A stretch of 46,733 bases of DNA from the NCBI RefSeq assembly GCF_001295845.1, contig NZ_LJIC01000053.1, positions 1-46,733 of the forward strand, in the 5' to 3' direction. A program made the translations under genes and the position numbers. This document shows positions 31,620 to 39,776 of the stretch, piece by piece (position 1 is the stretch's first letter; every line of letters starts with the position of its first letter). Under the pieces are notes generated by a model, which made no database searches, was not told the origin of the DNA, and worked only from the letters and a program-made list of their open reading frames with translations. The DNA comes from Rhodopseudomonas sp. AAP120 (GTDB lineage Bacteria > Pseudomonadota > Alphaproteobacteria > Rhizobiales > Xanthobacteraceae).

Positions 31620-32942
31620 TCAGCGCGGCATCCCGAAGAACAGGTTCGGGAAGAACAGCGCGATCTGCGGCAGCATGATCACGATCAGCACGCCGAGGAA
31701 CGTCACCAGCGCATAGGGGATGACCGACCAGTAGATGTCGCCCATGCTGACGTCCGGCGGTGCCACGGCCTTCAGGTAGAACAGATTGAAGCCGAATGGC
31801 GGCGTCATGTAGCCGATCTCCATCATCATGATGAAGATCACGCCGAACCACACCGGATCCCAGCCATAGAGCTGCACCACCGGCATGAACACCGGCAGCG
31901 TGATCAGCATGATGCCGACCGGATCGAGCACCATGCCGAGCAGCAGCAGCACCGCCAGGATGAACACCAGCGCACCCCATTCGCCGCCGGGCACCTGCGA
32001 CACCAGATGGTTCATCAGCTCGTTGGCGCCGAGCGTGGTGTAGGCGGTCGAGAAGGCGTGCGCGGCGAACAGAATCCACATGATCAGCGCGGTCAGCCGC
32101 AGCGTCTGCATCGCCGAATCCGACAGCACCGCATACGACAGCTTGCGATGCACCGCGGAGGCAATCAGCGCGCCGAACACGCCGAGCGCCGCGGCCTCGG
32201 TCGGCGTCGCGAAGCCGCCGAAGATCGAGCCGAGCACCAGCAGCACGATCAGGATCGGCAATGCCACCGCCTTCAGCGTGCTCAGCTTCAGCCGCCAGTC
32301 GCCGCGTTCTTCCGGCGGCAGCGCCGGGGCCAGCGACGGCTGCAGCCAGGCGCGCACGATGATGTAGACCGTCACCAGCACGACGAGCAGGATGCCGGGG
32401 CCGATGCCCGAGGCGAACAGCCGGCCGACCGACACTTCGGTCAGCATCGCGTACAGCACCATCAGGATCGACGGCGGCACCAGTACGCCCCAACCGCCGC
32501 CGGCATTGATGGCGCCGATCGCCAGCCGCTTGTCGTAGCCGCGCTCCAGCATGCGTGGCAGCGCGATCGCCCCCATCGTCACCACCGCGGCGCCGCTGAT
32601 GCCGCTCATCGCCGCGAAGATCGCACAGATCATCACGGTGCCGATCGCCAGTCCGCCGCGCATCGCGCCGAACCAGACATGCATCATCCGGTAGAGATTC
32701 TGCGCGACGCCGGACTTTTCCAGCAGCATCGCCATGTAGACGTACATCGGGATGGCGATCAGCGTGAAGTTCGTCATCGAGTCCCAGAATTTGGACGCGA
32801 CGATGTAGAAGCCGACCGGCCCCATGGCGAAATACAGGAAGATCACCGAGATGCCGCCGAGCGTGAACACCAGCGGCGTGCCGATGAACAGGAACACCAG
32901 CAGCGAACCGAAGAACAGGAAGGTCAGAAGCTCGACAGACAC
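31620..32942 (-). CDS. dctM: TRAP transporter large permease, DctM type
   Basis: A 440-residue inner-membrane protein with about 12 helices, the ion-driven transport subunit of a tripartite periplasmic (TRAP) transporter. It has the DctM pattern: an N-terminal LFFGSLLVFLFIGTPLVFTL, then GISGAAVVTMGAIALPRMLE and GGWGVLVPPSILMVLYAML, and near the end GVIFIMMMEIGYMTPPFGFN. It follows dctQ by 9 bp and dctP by about 680 bp on the same strand. TRAP systems usually carry C4-dicarboxylates, sialic acid, taurine-like or aromatic acids; the substrate here is unknown. Last gene of the molybdoenzyme cluster. Confidence 0.95.
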   Translation of the reverse strand: MSVELLTFLFFGSLLVFLFIGTPLVFTLGGISVIFLYFAMGPVGFYIVASKFWDSMTNFTLIAIPMYVYMAMLLEKSGVAQNLYRMMHVWFGAMRGGLAIGTVMICAIFAAMSGISGAAVVTMGAIALPRMLERGYDKRLAIGAINAGGGWGVLVPPSILMVLYAMLTEVSVGRLFASGIGPGILLVVLVTVYIIVRAWLQPSLAPALPPEERGDWRLKLSTLKAVALPILIVLLVLGSIFGGFATPTEAAALGVFGALIASAVHRKLSYAVLSDSAMQTLRLTALIMWILFAAHAFSTAYTTLGANELMNHLVSQVPGGEWGALVFILAVLLLLGMVLDPVGIMLITLPVFMPVVQLYGWDPVWFGVIFIMMMEIGYMTPPFGFNLFYLKAVAPPDVSMGDIYWSVIPYALVTFLGVLIVIMLPQIALFFPNLFFGMPR

Positions 32943-32951
32943 CGGATCGTC

Positions 32952-33494
32952 CTAGTGAGAGGAAGCGTCGCCGGCCTGCTTGCCGAACGTAGCGGGGTCG
33001 TTGTCGAGACCGGCGAGCGTGCGAATATCGGACGCGATCCGCACCAGGCCCTGCAGCAGCAGCAGCACGCCGGCGACCGGGATCGCCAGCTTCACCGGCC
33101 AGATGTACGGATTCCAGATGCTCGACGAAGTCTCGAGCTTGGCGGCCGACTCCCACGCCATATCGGCGCTCTGCCAGATCAGCACACCGATAAACAGGAA
33201 GAACAGGAACGAGGTGGCGAGGTCCACCCTCGCCTTCTGCACGCGGCTGAACTTGCCGTAGAAAATATCGACGTTGACGTGCGCCCGCTCCGCCAGCAAA
33301 TAGCCGCCCGCCACCACGGCGTAGACGCCGAAGATCAACTGCGCGAACTCCGACGTCCAGATCGCCGCGCTGCCGACGACGTAGCGCATGATCACATCGG
33401 CCATCAGCAGTACGAAGATCGGCACGATCAGCCATGCGGCAACGCGCGCAACCCAGGAGTTGAGCTGGGTGATAGCGGCGGCGACCTTCAACAT
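32952..33494 (-). CDS. dctQ: TRAP transporter small permease, DctQ type
   Basis: A 180-residue membrane protein with four helices (about 17-40, 50-70, 90-110 and 135-155). The ADVIMRYVVGSAAIWTSEFA stretch between helices 1 and 2 is the usual DctQ signature. It pairs with DctM to form the membrane part of the transporter. It lies between dctP and dctM with 9 bp to dctM. A second, larger open frame on the same strand through this region is a shadow. Confidence 0.93.
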   Translation of the reverse strand: MLKVAAAITQLNSWVARVAAWLIVPIFVLLMADVIMRYVVGSAAIWTSEFAQLIFGVYAVVAGGYLLAERAHVNVDIFYGKFSRVQKARVDLATSFLFFLFIGVLIWQSADMAWESAAKLETSSSIWNPYIWPVKLAIPVAGVLLLLQGLVRIASDIRTLAGLDNDPATFGKQAGDASSH

Positions 33495-33625
33495 GCGGGG
33501 ACTTTCATGGCTCGGCAGATGCGAAGCGGGACGTCAACGGCGCCCCGGCTGGCATACGTCTGGACGGCTCGGATGGAGAGCTGCGCCGAGATGGGCGGCG
33601 GGCTCAAGAGGCGATCGTCGCGGCC

Positions 33626-34666
33626 TCAGCCGTAGCCGAGATCCGCCATCAGCTTCGACAGCGCGGCGCCGCCCTTGGCGGCGTGCTCGCCCTTCGCAGT
33701 TTCCTTCTGCAGGATCGTCTTCGACGCCTGGGCGAATTTCGCCAGCACCTCATCCGGAAACTGCACGACCTCGACATTCATCTTGGCGCGCCCGGTGGCG
33801 AGCGCCATCGCTTCCTGATGCTGATACTCGACCGAGCGCAGGAAATAGCGCTCCTCGATCAACGACAGGAACTGCAGCCGCAGATCGGGCGGCAGCTTGT
33901 CGAGCGCCGCGGTGTTGACGATCCAGGCGTCGTTGGTGATGCCGAGCGCCGGCTTCATGTGGAACGGCGCGACTTCCCAGAATTTCATCGACAGCGCACC
34001 GACCGCCGCGCCCCAATGCGCGCCATCGACCACGCCCGTCGAAATCGCCTGATAGATCTCGGGACCCGCGACCTGCTGCGGTGACGCGCCGGCGGCGGCG
34101 AAATACTCGAGCATCGCGCCCGCCGAGCGGATCTTGAGCGAGCCGAGTTCGGCGGCCGAGTTGATCTTGCGCTTGAGCACCACTTCGGTCGGGTACGCCT
34201 TCTCGGCCATGATCACCACGCCCTTCGGCCGCAGTTCGTCATTAACCAGCTTTTCAACGCCGAGATTCTTGGTGAAGTGCATCATCTCCCACGGCTCGCG
34301 CAGCGTGCCGGGAACGCCGTAGAGCAGCCCCATCGCCTGCGCTTCGCCGAGAATATAGGCCGGCGAGATCGTGCCCATCTGCACGACGCCGCGGCGCACG
34401 ACGTTGTAGATCTCGCGGTCCTTGGCGATTTCGCCGGCGCCGTACGTCTCCAGCGTAAAGCGGCCGTCGGTGCGCGCGGCAAGTTCCTTGGCGAGCGCGC
34501 CGAGGCTGTCGTTGAACGAGCCGGACGCCTTCGGCCAATGCGCCTGGACTTTCCAACTCACCTTCTGTTGCGCCAGAGCAGGACCGATCAGCGCCGGAGC
34601 CGCGGCGGCAGCGAGCGCGCCCTTGAGAATGCTGCGACGGTTCGTCTTGCTGATCGTTTCTGCCAC
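33626..34666 (-). CDS. dctP: TRAP transporter substrate-binding protein, DctP type (Tat-exported)
   Basis: A 346-residue periplasmic binding protein. Residues 9-33 are a twin-arginine signal (TNRRSILKGALAAAAAPALI, cleavage after ALA), so it is exported folded by Tat. The mature part begins KVSWKVQAHWPKASGSFNDS; LKIRSAGAMLEYFAAAG and the later ISTGVVDGAHWGAAVG, with an arginine for carboxylate binding in KIRS, match the DctP family. The start is GTG at 34666 with GGGAGA upstream; the 34726 ATG adds a non-signal extension. Tat export is unusual but known among binding proteins. It likely captures a carboxylate or related anion for the adjacent DctQM. Confidence 0.93.
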   Translation of the reverse strand: MAETISKTNRRSILKGALAAAAAPALIGPALAQQKVSWKVQAHWPKASGSFNDSLGALAKELAARTDGRFTLETYGAGEIAKDREIYNVVRRGVVQMGTISPAYILGEAQAMGLLYGVPGTLREPWEMMHFTKNLGVEKLVNDELRPKGVVIMAEKAYPTEVVLKRKINSAAELGSLKIRSAGAMLEYFAAAGASPQQVAGPEIYQAISTGVVDGAHWGAAVGALSMKFWEVAPFHMKPALGITNDAWIVNTAALDKLPPDLRLQFLSLIEERYFLRSVEYQHQEAMALATGRAKMNVEVVQFPDEVLAKFAQASKTILQKETAKGEHAAKGGAALSKLMADLGYG

Positions 34667-34871
34667 GCGCTTCTCCCTCGCCGGATTGTTTCGACGAATT
34701 GACCATGGCGTAAACGCGCCAGTCAACGCATCGACTTCGTTCGAGAGAAGCGATGATGTCGCAGCCCACGACCTGTTAGTTCGCCACCGAACACGCAGTC
34801 GCGAACACCACCGGGGTGAGAGCGGGACGGCGCGACAAATCAGCGCCCCCGCGCTAACGATAGGAACCGAC

Positions 34872-36182
34872 CTAAGCGTCCACCGACGAATCCAACGTAG
34901 CGATCATCTCGGAGACACGGACGAACTTGTCTCGCGGCCGTCCACCCACGGCCCCTCGCCGTTTCTCTTCGGCGTCGATCGTCCCCCAATCCTGATAGCT
35001 TATCAGACGCGGCACACGCGTCCGAAGCAGCCCCAGCAACGCGTCGGGACGATTGCCGAAGCGGGGCGCGCCGGTCGCGAGATCGGCCAGCACCGCGTCG
35101 GCGGTGGCCATTCCGCAGGCCCGATTAGTTCCGATCGTGCCGCTCGGGCCGCGCTTGCTCCAGCCGCAGACGTAGAGCCCCTGCACCACCTGATCGCCGC
35201 GCGTGATGCGGCCGTCGACATTGGCGTGCACGCCGCGCACGGCATCGTAAGGCACGCCGTCCAGCGGCGCCGTGCGGCGGCCGATGCTGCTGAAGACGGC
35301 GCCGCAGGCGATCTGCTCTGCCGTGCGATCCTGGCCCGCGAAACGGATGGCTTCGACACGTTGCTCGCCCTGGATCTCGACCGGCGCCAGGCCAAAGCGG
35401 AACAGGCAGCGCCGCGGCTTGGCCGGCGCTTGCTGCGCGAAGCTGCGCAGCAGCGACAGCTTCTCGTCCTGCTCCGGATCGCCGGCCGCGTCGGGCACGG
35501 TCGCGAGTTCGCGCGGATCGACCACGGCGTCGCATTGCGCGAGGCTGAGGAAGTCGCGCAGCTCCTTGGCGCCGAACTTGGCCTGCGTTGGCCCGCCGCG
35601 GCCGACGACATGGACTTCGCGCACCCGGCTCTCGGCCAGCACGTCGAGCGCATGGGTCGCGATGTCGGTATGTCGCAACTCGTCCACGGTCTTCGACAGA
35701 ATGCGCGCAACGTCGAGCGCGACGTTGCCGTGGCCGATGACGGTCGCGACCTCGTGGCTGAGATCGAAACTGCGGTCGCGATGATTGGGATGGCCGTTGT
35801 ACCAGGCGACGAACTCGCCGGCAGAGTAACATCCAGGCAGTGCCTCGCCGGGGATGCCGAGCGGCCGGCTGAGATCGGCGCCGGTCGCGAGCACGACGGC
35901 GTCATAGGCCGAGCGCATTTCGTCGATCGTCACGTCCTCGCCGACGGCGACCCCACCGATGAAGTTGAAGCCCGGCAGCGCCGCGATCTTGTCGAAGGTC
36001 AGACTGACCAGCTTGAGCTTGGGGTGATCGGGCGCAACGCCAAACCGCACCAGACCATAAGGCACCGGCAGTCGTTCGAACATATCCACCGCGATCGCCG
36101 CGCCGGATCGCAGCAACGCCTCGGCCGCATAGAAGCCGCTCGGGCCGCTGCCGACCACGGCGACGTGAAACGGCGAACTCAT
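34872..36182 (-). CDS. Ferredoxin-NADP+ reductase, adrenodoxin-reductase type (FprA-like)
   Basis: A 436-residue FAD enzyme moving electrons between NADPH and a ferredoxin. FAD loop GSGPSGFYAAEALLR at 11-25, LVRFGVAPDHPKLK, NADP segment ATVIGHGNVALDVAR and the C-terminal GWSKRGPSGTIGTNR are the hallmarks of the adrenodoxin-reductase family. The start overlaps the ferredoxin stop as ATGA, so the two are coupled and very likely partners. In the cluster the pair may feed or drain the molybdoenzyme encoded upstream; the direction is not deducible. The longer frame to 36437 is an extension through the ferredoxin gene. Confidence 0.95.
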   Translation of the reverse strand: MSSPFHVAVVGSGPSGFYAAEALLRSGAAIAVDMFERLPVPYGLVRFGVAPDHPKLKLVSLTFDKIAALPGFNFIGGVAVGEDVTIDEMRSAYDAVVLATGADLSRPLGIPGEALPGCYSAGEFVAWYNGHPNHRDRSFDLSHEVATVIGHGNVALDVARILSKTVDELRHTDIATHALDVLAESRVREVHVVGRGGPTQAKFGAKELRDFLSLAQCDAVVDPRELATVPDAAGDPEQDEKLSLLRSFAQQAPAKPRRCLFRFGLAPVEIQGEQRVEAIRFAGQDRTAEQIACGAVFSSIGRRTAPLDGVPYDAVRGVHANVDGRITRGDQVVQGLYVCGWSKRGPSGTIGTNRACGMATADAVLADLATGAPRFGNRPDALLGLLRTRVPRLISYQDWGTIDAEEKRRGAVGGRPRDKFVRVSEMIATLDSSVDA

Positions 36183-36484
36183 CGGCCGAGCGCCTGCCGG
36201 CGTTCGTCGGCGCCGGGCAGCGGCGGCAGCCGCGCGGTGATCACCGGCGTCTCGGCGACGCGCTTGCGGTTGACGCCGATCCAGAACTTCTTGTCGGCGG
36301 CGAGCCGATAGTCCGGCTCGATCGCGCCGACCGGGCACGCCGGCACGCAGCCGCCACAATCGATGCAGTTCTCGGGATCGATATAGGTCATCGTGCCGTC
36401 GAGGTGAAAGCACTCGACCGGGCACACCGTCACACATTCAGTGTAGCGGCAGCCCTTGCAATTATCAGTCACGACGTGAGTCAT
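36179..36484 (-). CDS. 7Fe ferredoxin (3Fe-4S plus 4Fe-4S)
   Basis: A 101-residue ferredoxin. The first cluster cysteines are C9, C12, C17 and C21 (NCKGCRYTECVTVCP), the second C40, C43, C46 and C50 (NCIDCGGCVPACP). The spacing CxxCxxxxCxxxCP is that of Azotobacter FdI and FdxA: C9, C17 and C50 would hold a 3Fe-4S cluster, C21, C40, C43 and C46 a 4Fe-4S cluster. A C-terminal extension (about 55-101, KFWIGVNRKRV) is of the kind seen in longer FdxA proteins. It lies between the molybdoenzyme gene (72 bp upstream) and the reductase gene (ATGA overlap). Role: electron carrier between the two. Confidence 0.96.
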   Translation of the reverse strand: MTHVVTDNCKGCRYTECVTVCPVECFHLDGTMTYIDPENCIDCGGCVPACPVGAIEPDYRLAADKKFWIGVNRKRVAETPVITARLPPLPGADERRQALGR

Positions 36485-36556
36485 CGTCGGAACTCCGATG
36501 TTGGTAAGAGGAAAGGGCCGACGCCGCGCGGCGCCGGCCTGACGATGTGCGCCCGT

Positions 36557-38683
36557 TTACAGCCGCCCGACCTGCACCAGCACGTCGGAGAAGGTCGGCG
36601 CGCGGCCGAGATCGGCGAAGGCCGGCGGCGTCAGCGCATGCACGGTCGCGCCCTTACGGTTCGAGCGCTGCCAATAGCCGGATGGCGCCACCACGACGCC
36701 GGCCATCACGTCGGCCGACACCGTCGCATAGGCCTCGAACGACCCGCGATCGTTGAACACGCGGATCGGCGCTCCCGCTTCGATGCCGCGCGTCGCCGCA
36801 TCGTCCGGATTGAGGATCACCGCCTGCTCTTCGCCGGCCTGCGCGGTCTGCGCCGGCAGGTTGCCGTAGTTCGAGTTGAGGAAGGCGTGGCTCTTCGGCG
36901 AGATCAGGCTGAGTGGATAGCGCTCGGCCAGTTGCGGCGCCGTACGTGCGCTCTCGTTCGGCGAGATGTAGTGCGGCAAGGGATCGATCGGGCTGCCATC
37001 CTGATCGCCATTGTAGCCCTGCCGGAACAGCGGCGCGACGAAGTTGCCGCCCTCCGCGATGGTCGACTTGAACTCGACCTTGCCGGTCGCGGTCGGGAAA
37101 TTGCCGTCGCGATGCGGCGCCCAGTCGGCCGGCGCCGGCATGTTGAGCCGCGAATAGCCCTTGGCCTTGACGTCGTCCAGGGTGATCCCTTGCAGCACCG
37201 GATTGGTCCAATCCAGCGCGGCCTCGATCATCTCGTCGTCCGTGCGGAAGAAGCTCGGGTCGGTGATGCCCATCGCTTTGGCGAGGCGGCGGAACAGCTC
37301 GGTGTTCGGCACCGCTTCGCCGAGCGGCTCGATCGCCTGATTGTTGTAGGACAGATAGAGATGCCCCCAGGAGAACATGATGTCCTTCTGTTCGAGCTGC
37401 GTGGTCGCGGGCAGCACGATGTCGGCGTACTTGGCCGTATCGGTGATGAAATGTTCGCTGACGACGGTGAACAGGTCCTCGCGCTCGAGCCCCTTCTCGA
37501 TCTTGTCCTGCTCGGTGACCATCGCCATCGGATTGGCGTTGTAGACGAACAACGCCTTGATCGGCGGATCGAAGCCGAGCTCGCCGGTCAGCGCTGCGCC
37601 GAGCCGCCAGGAGTTGAGTACGCGCATGTTCTCCGGCGCGAGCTCGGGCCGCATCAAGACTTCCCACTTCACCGGGAAGGCCCAGATCGGCAGCTGCAGC
37701 AGGCCGCCGCCGACGTGCTTCCAGGCGCCGATCAGCGCCGGCAGACAGGCGATCGCCCGCACCGTCTGACCGCCGCCGGCATGGCGCTCGACCGCGACGC
37801 CGATGCGCACCACCGCGGGCGGAGTCGTGGCGTATTCACGCGCCAGCTTCAGGATGTCCTCGACCGGAATGCCGGTCTCCTGCGCGGCAAATTCCGGCGT
37901 GTAGGTTGTGGCGCGCTCGACCAGCTCGTCGTAACCGACCGTGTATTTGTCGATGTAATCGCGATCGACCAAATTCTCCTTGATGATCACGTGGATCATC
38001 GCCAGCGCCAGCGCCGCATCGGTGCCGGGGCGGATCGGGATGTGCCAGTCGGCCAGCCGCGCGGTGCGTGTCTTCACCGGATCGATCACCACCAGCTTGG
38101 CGCCGTTCTTCTTGGCCTGCTCGATGAACGGCCAGTGGTGCGAATTGGTGCTGAGCGTGTTGCAGGCCCACAGGATGATGTACTTCGAGTGCACGAAGCT
38201 TTCCGGATCGACGCCCGGCGTATGGCCGATCGTCAGCAGATAGGCGGTGCACGAGCCGGAATCGCAGAACGTCCGCTCCAGCACGGTGGCGCCGAGCGAG
38301 TTGAACAGCGGATCTCCGACGTTCAGTCCGTTGATCACGCCCTGCGTGCCCAAATAGCTGTAGGGCAGGATCGCCTGCGCGCCGTGCTCGGCGATAATCG
38401 ATTTCCACTTGGACGCAATGGTGTCGATCGCTTCGTCCCAGGAAATGCGCTGAAACTGCTTGGTGCCCTTCGGCCCGACACGCTTCATCGGATACAGCAC
38501 GCGCTTATCGCTGTAGACGCGCTCCTCGTAGTTGTTGACCTTCACGCAAAGCCGCCCGCGCGTGAACGGGTGGTCGGGATTGCCGCGCACCGCGATCGCC
38601 TTGCCGTCCTCGACGGTGGTGATCATGGAACACGTATCGGGGCAATCGTGGGGGCAGGCGCCTACGACGGTGGTCCGGGCCAT
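36557..38683 (-). CDS. Molybdopterin oxidoreductase (DMSO-reductase superfamily, MopB_3-like)
   Basis: A 708-residue bis-MGD enzyme. The N-terminal 4Fe-4S site is C10, C14, C18 and C46 (ACPHDCPDTC, then RLCVKVNN). The Mo-contact region is RTFCDSGSC (138-145), where S142 or C140 could ligate Mo. The VIDPVKTRTARLADWHIPIR and PGTDAALALAMIH stretches are typical of the superfamily. The C-terminal MGD-binding domain includes PLSLISPKSHAFLNSNYGNL. There is no Tat signal, so it is cytosolic. It is not a periplasmic Nap/Dms-type enzyme, and no membrane anchor or molybdoenzyme chaperone is nearby; its electron partner is most likely the ferredoxin just downstream. Substrate unknown. Confidence 0.93.
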   Translation of the reverse strand: MARTTVVGACPHDCPDTCSMITTVEDGKAIAVRGNPDHPFTRGRLCVKVNNYEERVYSDKRVLYPMKRVGPKGTKQFQRISWDEAIDTIASKWKSIIAEHGAQAILPYSYLGTQGVINGLNVGDPLFNSLGATVLERTFCDSGSCTAYLLTIGHTPGVDPESFVHSKYIILWACNTLSTNSHHWPFIEQAKKNGAKLVVIDPVKTRTARLADWHIPIRPGTDAALALAMIHVIIKENLVDRDYIDKYTVGYDELVERATTYTPEFAAQETGIPVEDILKLAREYATTPPAVVRIGVAVERHAGGGQTVRAIACLPALIGAWKHVGGGLLQLPIWAFPVKWEVLMRPELAPENMRVLNSWRLGAALTGELGFDPPIKALFVYNANPMAMVTEQDKIEKGLEREDLFTVVSEHFITDTAKYADIVLPATTQLEQKDIMFSWGHLYLSYNNQAIEPLGEAVPNTELFRRLAKAMGITDPSFFRTDDEMIEAALDWTNPVLQGITLDDVKAKGYSRLNMPAPADWAPHRDGNFPTATGKVEFKSTIAEGGNFVAPLFRQGYNGDQDGSPIDPLPHYISPNESARTAPQLAERYPLSLISPKSHAFLNSNYGNLPAQTAQAGEEQAVILNPDDAATRGIEAGAPIRVFNDRGSFEAYATVSADVMAGVVVAPSGYWQRSNRKGATVHALTPPAFADLGRAPTFSDVLVQVGRL

Positions 38684-38867
38684 CAGCTTCCTCCATGGGC
38701 ACGTTCAAAAACCTGCGCAAGGATGAGGCACCCGGGGCCGCGTGGCTTTCCTAACCTGCTTGGTTGTTTTCCAAATCTGCCGTGGACGGAAGGCACCGTC
38801 CGTGGCATGGTAATTGCTTGCCTGGACTGCTCTTGCCTGCACTCGCGTCAATCTGTGGAGATTCACG

Positions 38868-39776
38868 ATGGGGATGCTCGGCAATTCTGTCGATAAATAT
38901 GTTACCGGCAGAATGCTCCAGACTTCGAACGACCGGCGCTGGTCCCACCTGCTCGCGGAGCGGTGGAGTCACGAGTCCGGCGACCTGCCGTCGCTGCTGC
39001 CGCGGGACACCGAGATCGCCGTGCTATTGCGCGGCAGTTCGGTGGTCGATCGGGAAGGCGCCGGGATGCGGCAGCGGACCTACGGCCGGCGCGGCACGGT
39101 CTGGCTGTGCCCCGCCGGAATCCGCGAGGATTTCATCCGGGTCGAGAGCCAGATCCACGAATGCCTGCACATCTTCCTGCCCGGGCGGCCGTTCGAGGAC
39201 ACGATGCTGCGGGACATGGATATCGACCCGGCCGGGATCGCGATCCGCTACGAGGCGATCGACCACGACATCTTCATCGAGCACGTCGCCGACCGGATCC
39301 TCGCGGAGCTTGCGGAGGAGACGTCGACCGGCCGCCTGCTGGTCGAGAGCCTCGGCCGCGCCCTGTCGGCGCATCTGGTGCACACGTATGCGGACACGGC
39401 GGTCCGGCTGAGGCAGACGCAGGCGGCGAACCGGCCGCTCGATGCGCGGCGGCTGGCGCGCGTCACGGACTTCATCAGCGCATCGTCGGAGCGCGACTTC
39501 ACCGTCAACGATCTTGCCTCGATCGCCTGCATGAGCCCGGCGCATTTTTCGCGCAGCTTCAAGGCGGCGACGGGCTGCGCGCCGCACGAGTATGTCAGCC
39601 GGCAGCGGCTCGATCTCGCCAAGCGGCTGCTGGCGACGGATCGCCAGTCGCTCGCGGAGATCGCCTATGCGACCGGATTCTCGTCACAGGCGAATTTCAA
39701 CCGGGCGTTCCGAAAAGCGGTCGGCACCACGCCGCGGCTGTATCGCGCGCAGCACCGCACGACCACGATCGCGTGA
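38868..39776 (+). CDS. AraC-family transcriptional regulator
   Basis: A 302-residue regulator. Residues 1-190 are a ligand/dimer domain of cupin-like character (GTVWLCPAGIREDFIRV, CLHIFLPGRPFEDTML). Residues 205-302 carry the two AraC HTH motifs: SERDFTVNDLASIACMSPAH with FSRSFKAATGCAPHEYVSRQ, then LAEIAYATGFSSQANFNRAF and GTTPRLYR. Start at 38868 has GGAG 7 nt upstream. The gene is divergent from the molybdoenzyme gene with 184 bp between starts, so it probably controls the Mo-ferredoxin-TRAP cluster in response to its substrate. The ligand is unknown. Confidence 0.9.
   Translation: MGMLGNSVDKYVTGRMLQTSNDRRWSHLLAERWSHESGDLPSLLPRDTEIAVLLRGSSVVDREGAGMRQRTYGRRGTVWLCPAGIREDFIRVESQIHECLHIFLPGRPFEDTMLRDMDIDPAGIAIRYEAIDHDIFIEHVADRILAELAEETSTGRLLVESLGRALSAHLVHTYADTAVRLRQTQAANRPLDARRLARVTDFISASSERDFTVNDLASIACMSPAHFSRSFKAATGCAPHEYVSRQRLDLAKRLLATDRQSLAEIAYATGFSSQANFNRAFRKAVGTTPRLYRAQHRTTTIA

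Follow-up and report, generated by a model that had tools for sequence, protein, structure and literature searches.

Most cytosolic molybdenum enzymes of the DMSO-reductase superfamily draw on general electron donors. BisC and the assimilatory nitrate reductase NarB are soluble, cytosolic and driven by NADPH or ferredoxin, and in this they resemble the enzyme described here. Ferredoxin-NADP reductases (FNRs) of the FprA/adrenodoxin reductase type are known as partners of P450s and of general ferredoxin metabolism, not of a dedicated molybdoenzyme. To our knowledge neither BisC nor NarB occurs with an FdxA-FprA-MoaA cassette, and we know of no ferredoxin/FNR operon for acetylene hydratase. Here we report on a locus of Rhodopseudomonas sp. 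AAP120 (contig NZ_LJIC01000053.1, whose 46,733 nucleotides were analysed and are called the window) that carries a molybdoenzyme gene (Mo gene), a 7Fe ferredoxin gene, an FNR gene and the genes of a DctPQM tripartite ATP-independent periplasmic (TRAP) transporter, with an AraC-family regulator gene divergent from the Mo gene. A first-pass annotation had taken the six co-directional genes for one TRAP-fed module. Comparison with relatives leads us to a different reading, which we consider probable: the locus would consist of two functionally separate units, an AraC/Mo/ferredoxin/FNR cassette and an independent DctPQM unit, joined in part of one genus.

The cassette is the conserved part. One genome per species was scanned with patterns reaching close relatives, which gave 51 loci (L-numbers denote loci and G-numbers genomes, G000 being the own genome): 45 core loci with 80-97% identity to the window's Mo protein, the reference for all Mo identities below, five at about 70% (L038, L040, L041, L042 and L044) and one fragment (L051). 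The AraC gene was present in all 45 core loci and the ferredoxin and FNR genes in 43 each; the two misses are contig ends, as L002 and L003 stop 95 and 31 bases past the Mo gene. The earlier grouping of Mo enzyme, ferredoxin and FNR under a divergent AraC regulator is thus borne out as a conserved set. DctPQM was found in two core loci, both from Rhodopseudomonas, and where at least 6 kb to the right of the Mo gene was available (41 loci) dctP occurred in two and MoaA in 19. Indeed, moaA is a frequent fifth cassette gene elsewhere (20/45 core loci, and plasmids), and the window is without it. A cysE gene accompanies 17 of the core loci, all of them Bradyrhizobium, and was set aside as flanking synteny.

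The TRAP genes lie on the minus strand, as do the Mo, ferredoxin and FNR genes, and comprise dctP (33626-34666), whose product carries a twin-arginine-like signal, dctQ (32952-33494) and dctM (31620-32942). The transporter was rightly called complete, all three domains being over the Pfam cut-offs (PF03480, E 1e-34; PF04290, E 3e-25; PF06808, E 2e-85), with DctM over that of TIGR00786 as well. The most likely dctP start is the GTG at 34666, preceded by GGGAGAAGC; in L075 and L076 an ATG stands in its place. Coordinates derived anew reproduced the gene positions and strands of the first-pass annotation, together with its gaps at 36485-36556, 34667-34871 and 33495-33625.

Among 16 Rhodopseudomonas genomes the Mo gene was found in eight and a window-type dctP in eight: both in five, the Mo gene only in three, dctP only in three and neither in five (Fisher p 0.62, odds ratio 2.8, for this small sample). 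The two genes adjoin in three genomes (G000, G002 and G009), and in G008, a single contig, they are 2.4 Mb apart. A TGA in the G008 dctP match falls, by coordinates, in codon 1 or 2 of that match and thus ahead of the start, so the gene is not broken. G011 and G008 show the order DMT6-dctP-dctQ-dctM-GSDH with outer neighbours as in the window, and the cassette is not at that locus; homology of the window to the cassette-free L077 and L078 breaks off at the DMT6 stop (39780) and sets in again near dctP. Conversely, in L001 the cassette abuts GSDH and the TRAP genes are not there, while G005, G007 and G012 have their TRAP genes elsewhere, among rsmJ-, degP- and hflK/C-like genes (names by inspection). 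In G014 and G015 the contig stops after the Mo gene, and neither genome has a window-type dctP at E<=1e-60. The genes therefore separate freely in relatives, the very outcome that the first-pass annotation had named as refuting its module.

What could still speak for a single module, with DctPQM taking up what the Mo enzyme then acts on, is the shared strand, the adjacency of the two gene groups (window, L045, L046) and the FNR-dctP gap (34667-34871), in which no minus-strand terminator-like site was found. The presence of TRAP genes in just two of the 45 core loci, the lack of significant co-occurrence in the 16 genomes, TRAP genes standing at the window's own locus without the cassette or at another locus altogether, and three further features make this most improbable, and the TRAP-fed reading is not supported. 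In L045 (R. palustris 2.1.18) an unrelated epimerase-like gene of NAD-dependent type, named by inspection, separates FNR and dctP (L045:7239-8588). A block CTGCGACAT...TTGAC...TGGTC lies 5' of dctP in the cassette carriers (window, L046, L045) and likewise at the cassette-free loci L077 and L078, L077 differing by one base in its last part. Finally, the window holds no second copy of the operator pattern described below. On the minus strand of the window the block has CTGCGACATCATC at 34752-34764, TTGACT at 34721-34726 and, after 17 nt, GTCAAT at 34698-34703; none of the seven rows of the upstream alignment departs from TTGAC. It is promoter-like and may be the TRAP unit's own; a generic sigma-70 scan returned no site in this gap, and promoter and terminator scans of the window were at or below chance.

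A looser tie was also weighed, namely recent read-through that would put the TRAP genes under partial AraC control in the three adjacent Rhodopseudomonas, with no substrate in common. The common orientation, the adjacency kept in G000, G002 and G009 and the gap free of a terminator-like site fit such coupling. These three genomes are close relatives, so the adjacency is perhaps one inherited event, and the epimerase-like gene of L045 and the conserved upstream block count against it as well; we hold this explanation to be doubtful.

The transporter's own ligand could not be read from its kin. The top PDB matches of DctP are TakP-type binding proteins (2hzk, 4yzz and 4yic; E 7e-24 to 1.5e-21), the best being 2hzk, annotated SmoM, which we take to be TakP. 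Binding proteins of this type have a metal-binding Glu and a 2-oxo acid ligand. The E-W pair of 2hzk is H-W in DctP, with His in all seven rows covering the position, window included; since His replaces this Glu, the 2-oxo acid ligand is not transferable, and a TakP-type 2-oxo acid transporter was rejected. For the Mo enzyme, the separation of the two units removes a wrong clue, as the TRAP transporter is not to be used for guessing its substrate.

The Mo protein itself (gene 36557-38683, minus strand; 708 residues) belongs to the DMSO-reductase (MopB) superfamily, PF00384 (150.8 bits), PF01568 and PF04879 all being over their cut-offs. The fold agrees: a predicted structure (AF2, from 30 sequences; pLDDT 89, pTM 0.91) matched the 50 structures listed with a query TM of 0.73-0.82. 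Cys10, Cys14, Cys18 and Cys46 make up a [4Fe-4S] motif that is invariant across the aligned relatives. Cys140, present in 78 of 79 aligned rows (the remaining row is a gap), aligns with the metal-binding Cys known from both acetylene hydratase and formate dehydrogenase, and is the predicted Mo(W) ligand. No RR occurs among the first 30 residues, in line with the earlier statement that a Tat signal is missing. From these comparisons we predict a cytosolic oxidoreductase with Mo (or W) held by bis-molybdopterin guanine dinucleotide (bis-MGD).

Its place within the superfamily is less easily named. In NCBIfam the protein stayed far below the cut-off of all 25 models shown (26 matched), and the predicted structure resembles all listed branches about equally, with acetylene hydratase (2e7z) giving the best TM (0.82) among the 50 matches listed. 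That enzyme is also the best match in a single-sequence PDB search, while the formate dehydrogenase chains 7bkb_D and 7qv7_S come out on top of a profile search, acetylene hydratase being third with nearly equal score. The Mo protein thus appears, as far as the tools used show, to represent an uncharacterised branch.

Several known kinds were considered and set aside. S/N-oxide reductases of type III (DMSO/TMAO/BisC) bind their metal through a Ser and lack an FeS cluster, BisC taking its electrons from NADPH directly, unlike a protein with Cys140 and invariant FeS cysteines, which scores 230.6 of 1017.6 bits with TIGR00509. A respiratory DmsA/YnfE reductase, which would come with a Tat signal, a B subunit and an anchor, disagrees with TIGR02166 (318 of 778 bits), with the ferredoxin as DmsB (27 of 214) and with the missing RR, no model search for an anchor having been made; an assimilatory nitrate reductase disagrees with NasC (201 of 1100 bits) and NasA_Halo (131 of 1000). 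Formate dehydrogenase 4 (Fdh4A) is likened to FdhF/YdeP-family proteins in the part seen of one article (PMC10308882), and the model of that family gives only 71 of 582 bits on the Mo protein. The SAR11 fdhF adjoins fdsB, of the NAD-dependent type, in the section seen of another article (PMC3160333); judged by this description, with no comparison of sequences, it is probably not the same gene. The portions seen of two further articles (PMC12753301 and PMC9751292) hold nothing on the Mo-protein family. Exact-word searching of open-licence full texts brought up no recognised description of the gene set; every part is of a known kind, and what appears uncharacterised is their combination, together with the Mo subfamily.

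The two nearest kinds bear on what the enzyme may do. Acetylene hydratase of Pelobacter acetylenicus is alike in fold, length, Cys-ligated bis-MGD metal and the single N-terminal [4Fe-4S] cluster. A non-redox hydratase of this type, with ferredoxin and FNR merely keeping the metal reduced, would accord with the best single-sequence match and the highest TM-score. The identity is only 25%, the scores of other family members come close, and the residues known in acetylene hydratase as catalytic Asp13 and as Ile142, beside Cys141, align with Pro15 and Asp141 (with an inferred numbering offset of 3). Acetylene hydratase was rejected as identity for the Mo protein, and we find a hydratase very unlikely.

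The chief rival, which we nonetheless judge unlikely, runs the chain in reverse: the Mo enzyme would oxidise formate or a similar compound, and ferredoxin and FNR would carry the electrons on to NADP+. The alpha subunits of formate dehydrogenases (E. coli FdhF, the FdhF of HDCR, 7bkb_D) share the superfamily, the Cys/SeCys position and the [4Fe-4S] motif, the TIGR01591 score shows a distant similarity, the profile search places two such chains first, and genera known for methylotrophy are among the carriers. TIGR01591 reaches 266 bits against a cut-off of 666, the first aligned stretch of phmmer with HDCR FdhF stops at residue 330, and where formate dehydrogenases have His next to the Cys/SeCys ligand the Mo protein has Asp141, as do all 47 core rows that have a residue at this position (and just 6 of 31 more distant rows). 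A formate dehydrogenase alpha subunit was rejected on these grounds. Moreover, kin of FprA and adrenodoxin reductase pass electrons from NADPH to ferredoxin.

A 55% relative of the Mo protein bears on the same rival. It lies at L155:3583-10542 in G433, an alphaproteobacterial genome of 25% GC and 0.8 Mb (71% complete), among tupABC-like genes, which stay under the Tup model cut-offs, and moaA, fdhD and mobA, which are over theirs. This company hints at tungsten use by that branch, and could be taken for a sign of formate chemistry. G433 also encodes a 929-residue molybdopterin protein, and in G702 and G420 fdhD is about 3 kb from one of 920-930 residues; the fdhD link is therefore not specific to the Mo relative, and the sign is weakened.

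Of the electron carriers, it is the FNR that would favour flow toward the Mo enzyme. The ferredoxin (36179-36484, minus strand; 101 residues) has nine cysteines, of which 9, 17, 50 and 21, 40, 43, 46 are in the 7Fe register of Azotobacter ferredoxin I, and its best PDB matches are ferredoxin I chains. It scores 109.2 bits with NF045490 (FdxA), under the cut-off of 135; its earlier naming as a 7Fe ferredoxin has the cysteine positions and PDB matches on its side and the cut-off of that model against it. The FNR gene (34872-36182, minus strand; 436 residues) overlaps it in an ATGA, as had been noted, and its product is indeed of the adrenodoxin-reductase type, being closest to FprA 1lqt (E 4e-94, residues 4-427) and then to adrenodoxin reductase 1cjc (E 8e-90). 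The cassette is therefore akin, in FNR family and in 7Fe cysteine positions, to known systems of FprA/adrenodoxin reductase with 7Fe ferredoxin. This kinship suggests NADPH as the electron donor; of the earlier proposal that the Mo reaction occurs at the expense of NADPH, the donor is thus made plausible, and the direction, toward the Mo enzyme, is one we infer from the physiology of the FNR family.

Between the Mo and ferredoxin genes a 10-bp GC-rich hairpin with a T/C-rich tail (36516-36539, minus strand) was picked up by a terminator-like scan. By count it is unremarkable (5 found vs 4.8 in shuffles); folding of this gap, for the window sequence only, gave -29 kcal/mol (z -1.7). The hairpin is a possible processing or attenuation site and may set the ratio of Mo protein to ferredoxin.

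The regulator gene (38814-39776, plus strand; PF12833 over its cut-off, E 3e-25), whose stop codon is 3 bp from that of DMT6, faces a candidate operator. Two direct repeats, 21 bp apart, were read by eye from 15 aligned AraC-Mo gaps, and in the window the pattern GCAN5GGANAA-N7-GCAN5GGANAR lies at 38746-38780 on the minus strand, 63-97 bp before the Mo start codon (chance in the window 0.03). With up to two mismatches, GCAN5GGANAA-N7-GCAN5GGANAA precedes the Mo gene at 48 of 55 loci and has no other occurrence in their 1.1 Mb; 14 of the 55 had supplied rows to the 15-row alignment from which the pattern was read, at least two repeat a contig already represented, and the set includes L110 (without ferredoxin and FNR) and L135 (without AraC). 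In the own genome a slightly looser pattern matched exactly just once, at 38747-38780; a further site, with a mismatch, equals what the control gave. Given this single exact site and none elsewhere in the loci, the AraC regulator probably serves the Mo promoter alone and not a transporter elsewhere. The repeats would be bound by the cassette's AraC protein, which would presumably activate rather than repress the Mo gene.

The cassette also appears to be mobile. Mo relatives were present in 27 of 398 sampled genomes of the phylum at E<=1e-130 and in 13 of 385 of the class at E<=1e-240, own genome counted in both. Among 72,556 plasmid records, 17 carry a relative at E<=1e-150, nine of these at 80-90% identity, and five of the 17 were opened. 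Three Agrobacterium/Allorhizobium plasmids, typed conjugative, have AraC-Mo-Fdx-FNR-moaA. A Thioclava plasmid has AraC-Mo-Fdx-FNR-glp, flanked by IS6 transposase genes about 12 kb apart, with a replication-initiation gene also between them; in this composite-transposon-like arrangement (L134:3301-15973) a glp/moeA-like gene replaces moaA. A gammaproteobacterial plasmid, from Methylophaga and typed non-mobilizable, has Mo-Fdx-FNR-moaA but no AraC gene, and genes of conjugative elements lie 5-10 kb from it. In a 40-row Mo tree (midpoint root) the betaproteobacterial Comamonadaceae fall within an 11-row clade otherwise alphaproteobacterial (support 98/96), and the ferredoxin/FNR label takes 3 changes vs 10.6 in shuffles. 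Comparison of loci, plasmids and tree thus shows a cassette spread over Alpha-, Beta- and Gammaproteobacteria, consistent with horizontal movement.

A number of results weigh against the reading of a mobile, regulated and self-wired cassette set apart from DctPQM. Ferredoxin and FNR genes were found within 7 kb of the Mo gene in none of the five loci at about 70% identity, none of three at 65% (AraC kept), none of 12 at 54-56% and none of 18 at 39-47%, some of these contigs being short; plasmid copies at 62% and 57% do have them nearby. G304 (Mo identity 78%) has AraC-Mo, no ferredoxin or FNR gene nearby and no FNR relative at E<=1e-30, so the electron wiring is not universal. The operator pattern was not found in seven of the 55 loci (L022, L023, L049, L134, L135, L136 and L138), the Thioclava and Methylophaga plasmids among them. 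Base composition gave no anomaly at the cassette as a sign of transfer. All eight Rhodopseudomonas Mo proteins form one clade; relocation within the genus fits this, and independent acquisition of the two cassette locations was dropped. The cassette may have been inserted at the window's locus or excised elsewhere. In the L045, L046 and L001 stretches no DMT6 turned up, so the junction at its stop is the window's own. Lastly, where the two units adjoin, in three related Rhodopseudomonas, the TRAP genes do come after FNR, and with no minus-strand terminator-like site in the window's gap read-through from FNR into dctP is possible.

Some neighbouring genes were recorded beside these loci. In G304 the AraC-Mo pair (L110:6887-13786) faces another member of the superfamily, of 32% identity, and a gene that by inspection resembles old yellow enzyme. 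The own genome has a Mo-protein paralogue of 34% identity over nearly the full length (L053, G000:C34:45719-47707). An AraC gene and an acyl-CoA dehydrogenase gene, the latter with 81-99% identity to its L036 counterpart, occur near the cassette at four loci from three genera (L022:6458-8807, L027:14909-17260, L036:6037-8406 and L050:6099-8405); the L036 AraC gene is FeaR-like, under the cut-off, and with just four loci the pair was not retained as a substrate clue. Among relatives at 42-47% (L118-L132) an M20 amidohydrolase gene is often in the same fetched stretch; the family, of which one member was identified, was seen at 13 of 26 loci compared, reflecting either a different function or plain synteny.

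The explanation that we favour, and think probable, is that of a mobile, AraC-run, NADPH-driven reductive cassette beside a stand-alone DctPQM. The AraC activator would bind its two tandem sites before the Mo gene and switch on the Mo enzyme, the 7Fe ferredoxin and the FprA-type reductase. Electrons would then pass in the cytosol from NADPH to the FAD of the FprA-type reductase, to ferredoxin, to the [4Fe-4S] cluster of the Mo enzyme and to the bis-MGD Mo (or W) at Cys140. The Mo enzyme would reduce a substrate that is already cytosolic or enters without a dedicated carrier; as the cassette moves without a constant transporter, this substrate probably arises inside the cell or comes in by general routes. 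S- or N-oxides and oxyanions are guesses at its class, made from what the superfamily handles. The moaA gene of many relatives, and once the glp/moeA-like gene, would add to cofactor supply, and DctPQM would be an uptake system apart, with its own promoter-like region.

An uncharacterised Mo enzyme thus appears to travel together with an NADPH chain and a regulator dedicated to it, and often also with a gene for cofactor synthesis. With four or five genes under one promoter, the trait lends itself to expression and screening as a whole, which makes the reaction of the Mo enzyme directly testable. More tentatively, the cassette may be a portable, self-wired Mo/W unit that would give soil, plant and marine bacteria an NADPH-powered cytosolic reduction new to the characterised families, under selection strong enough for carriage on plasmids and, in one case, between two IS6 transposase genes.

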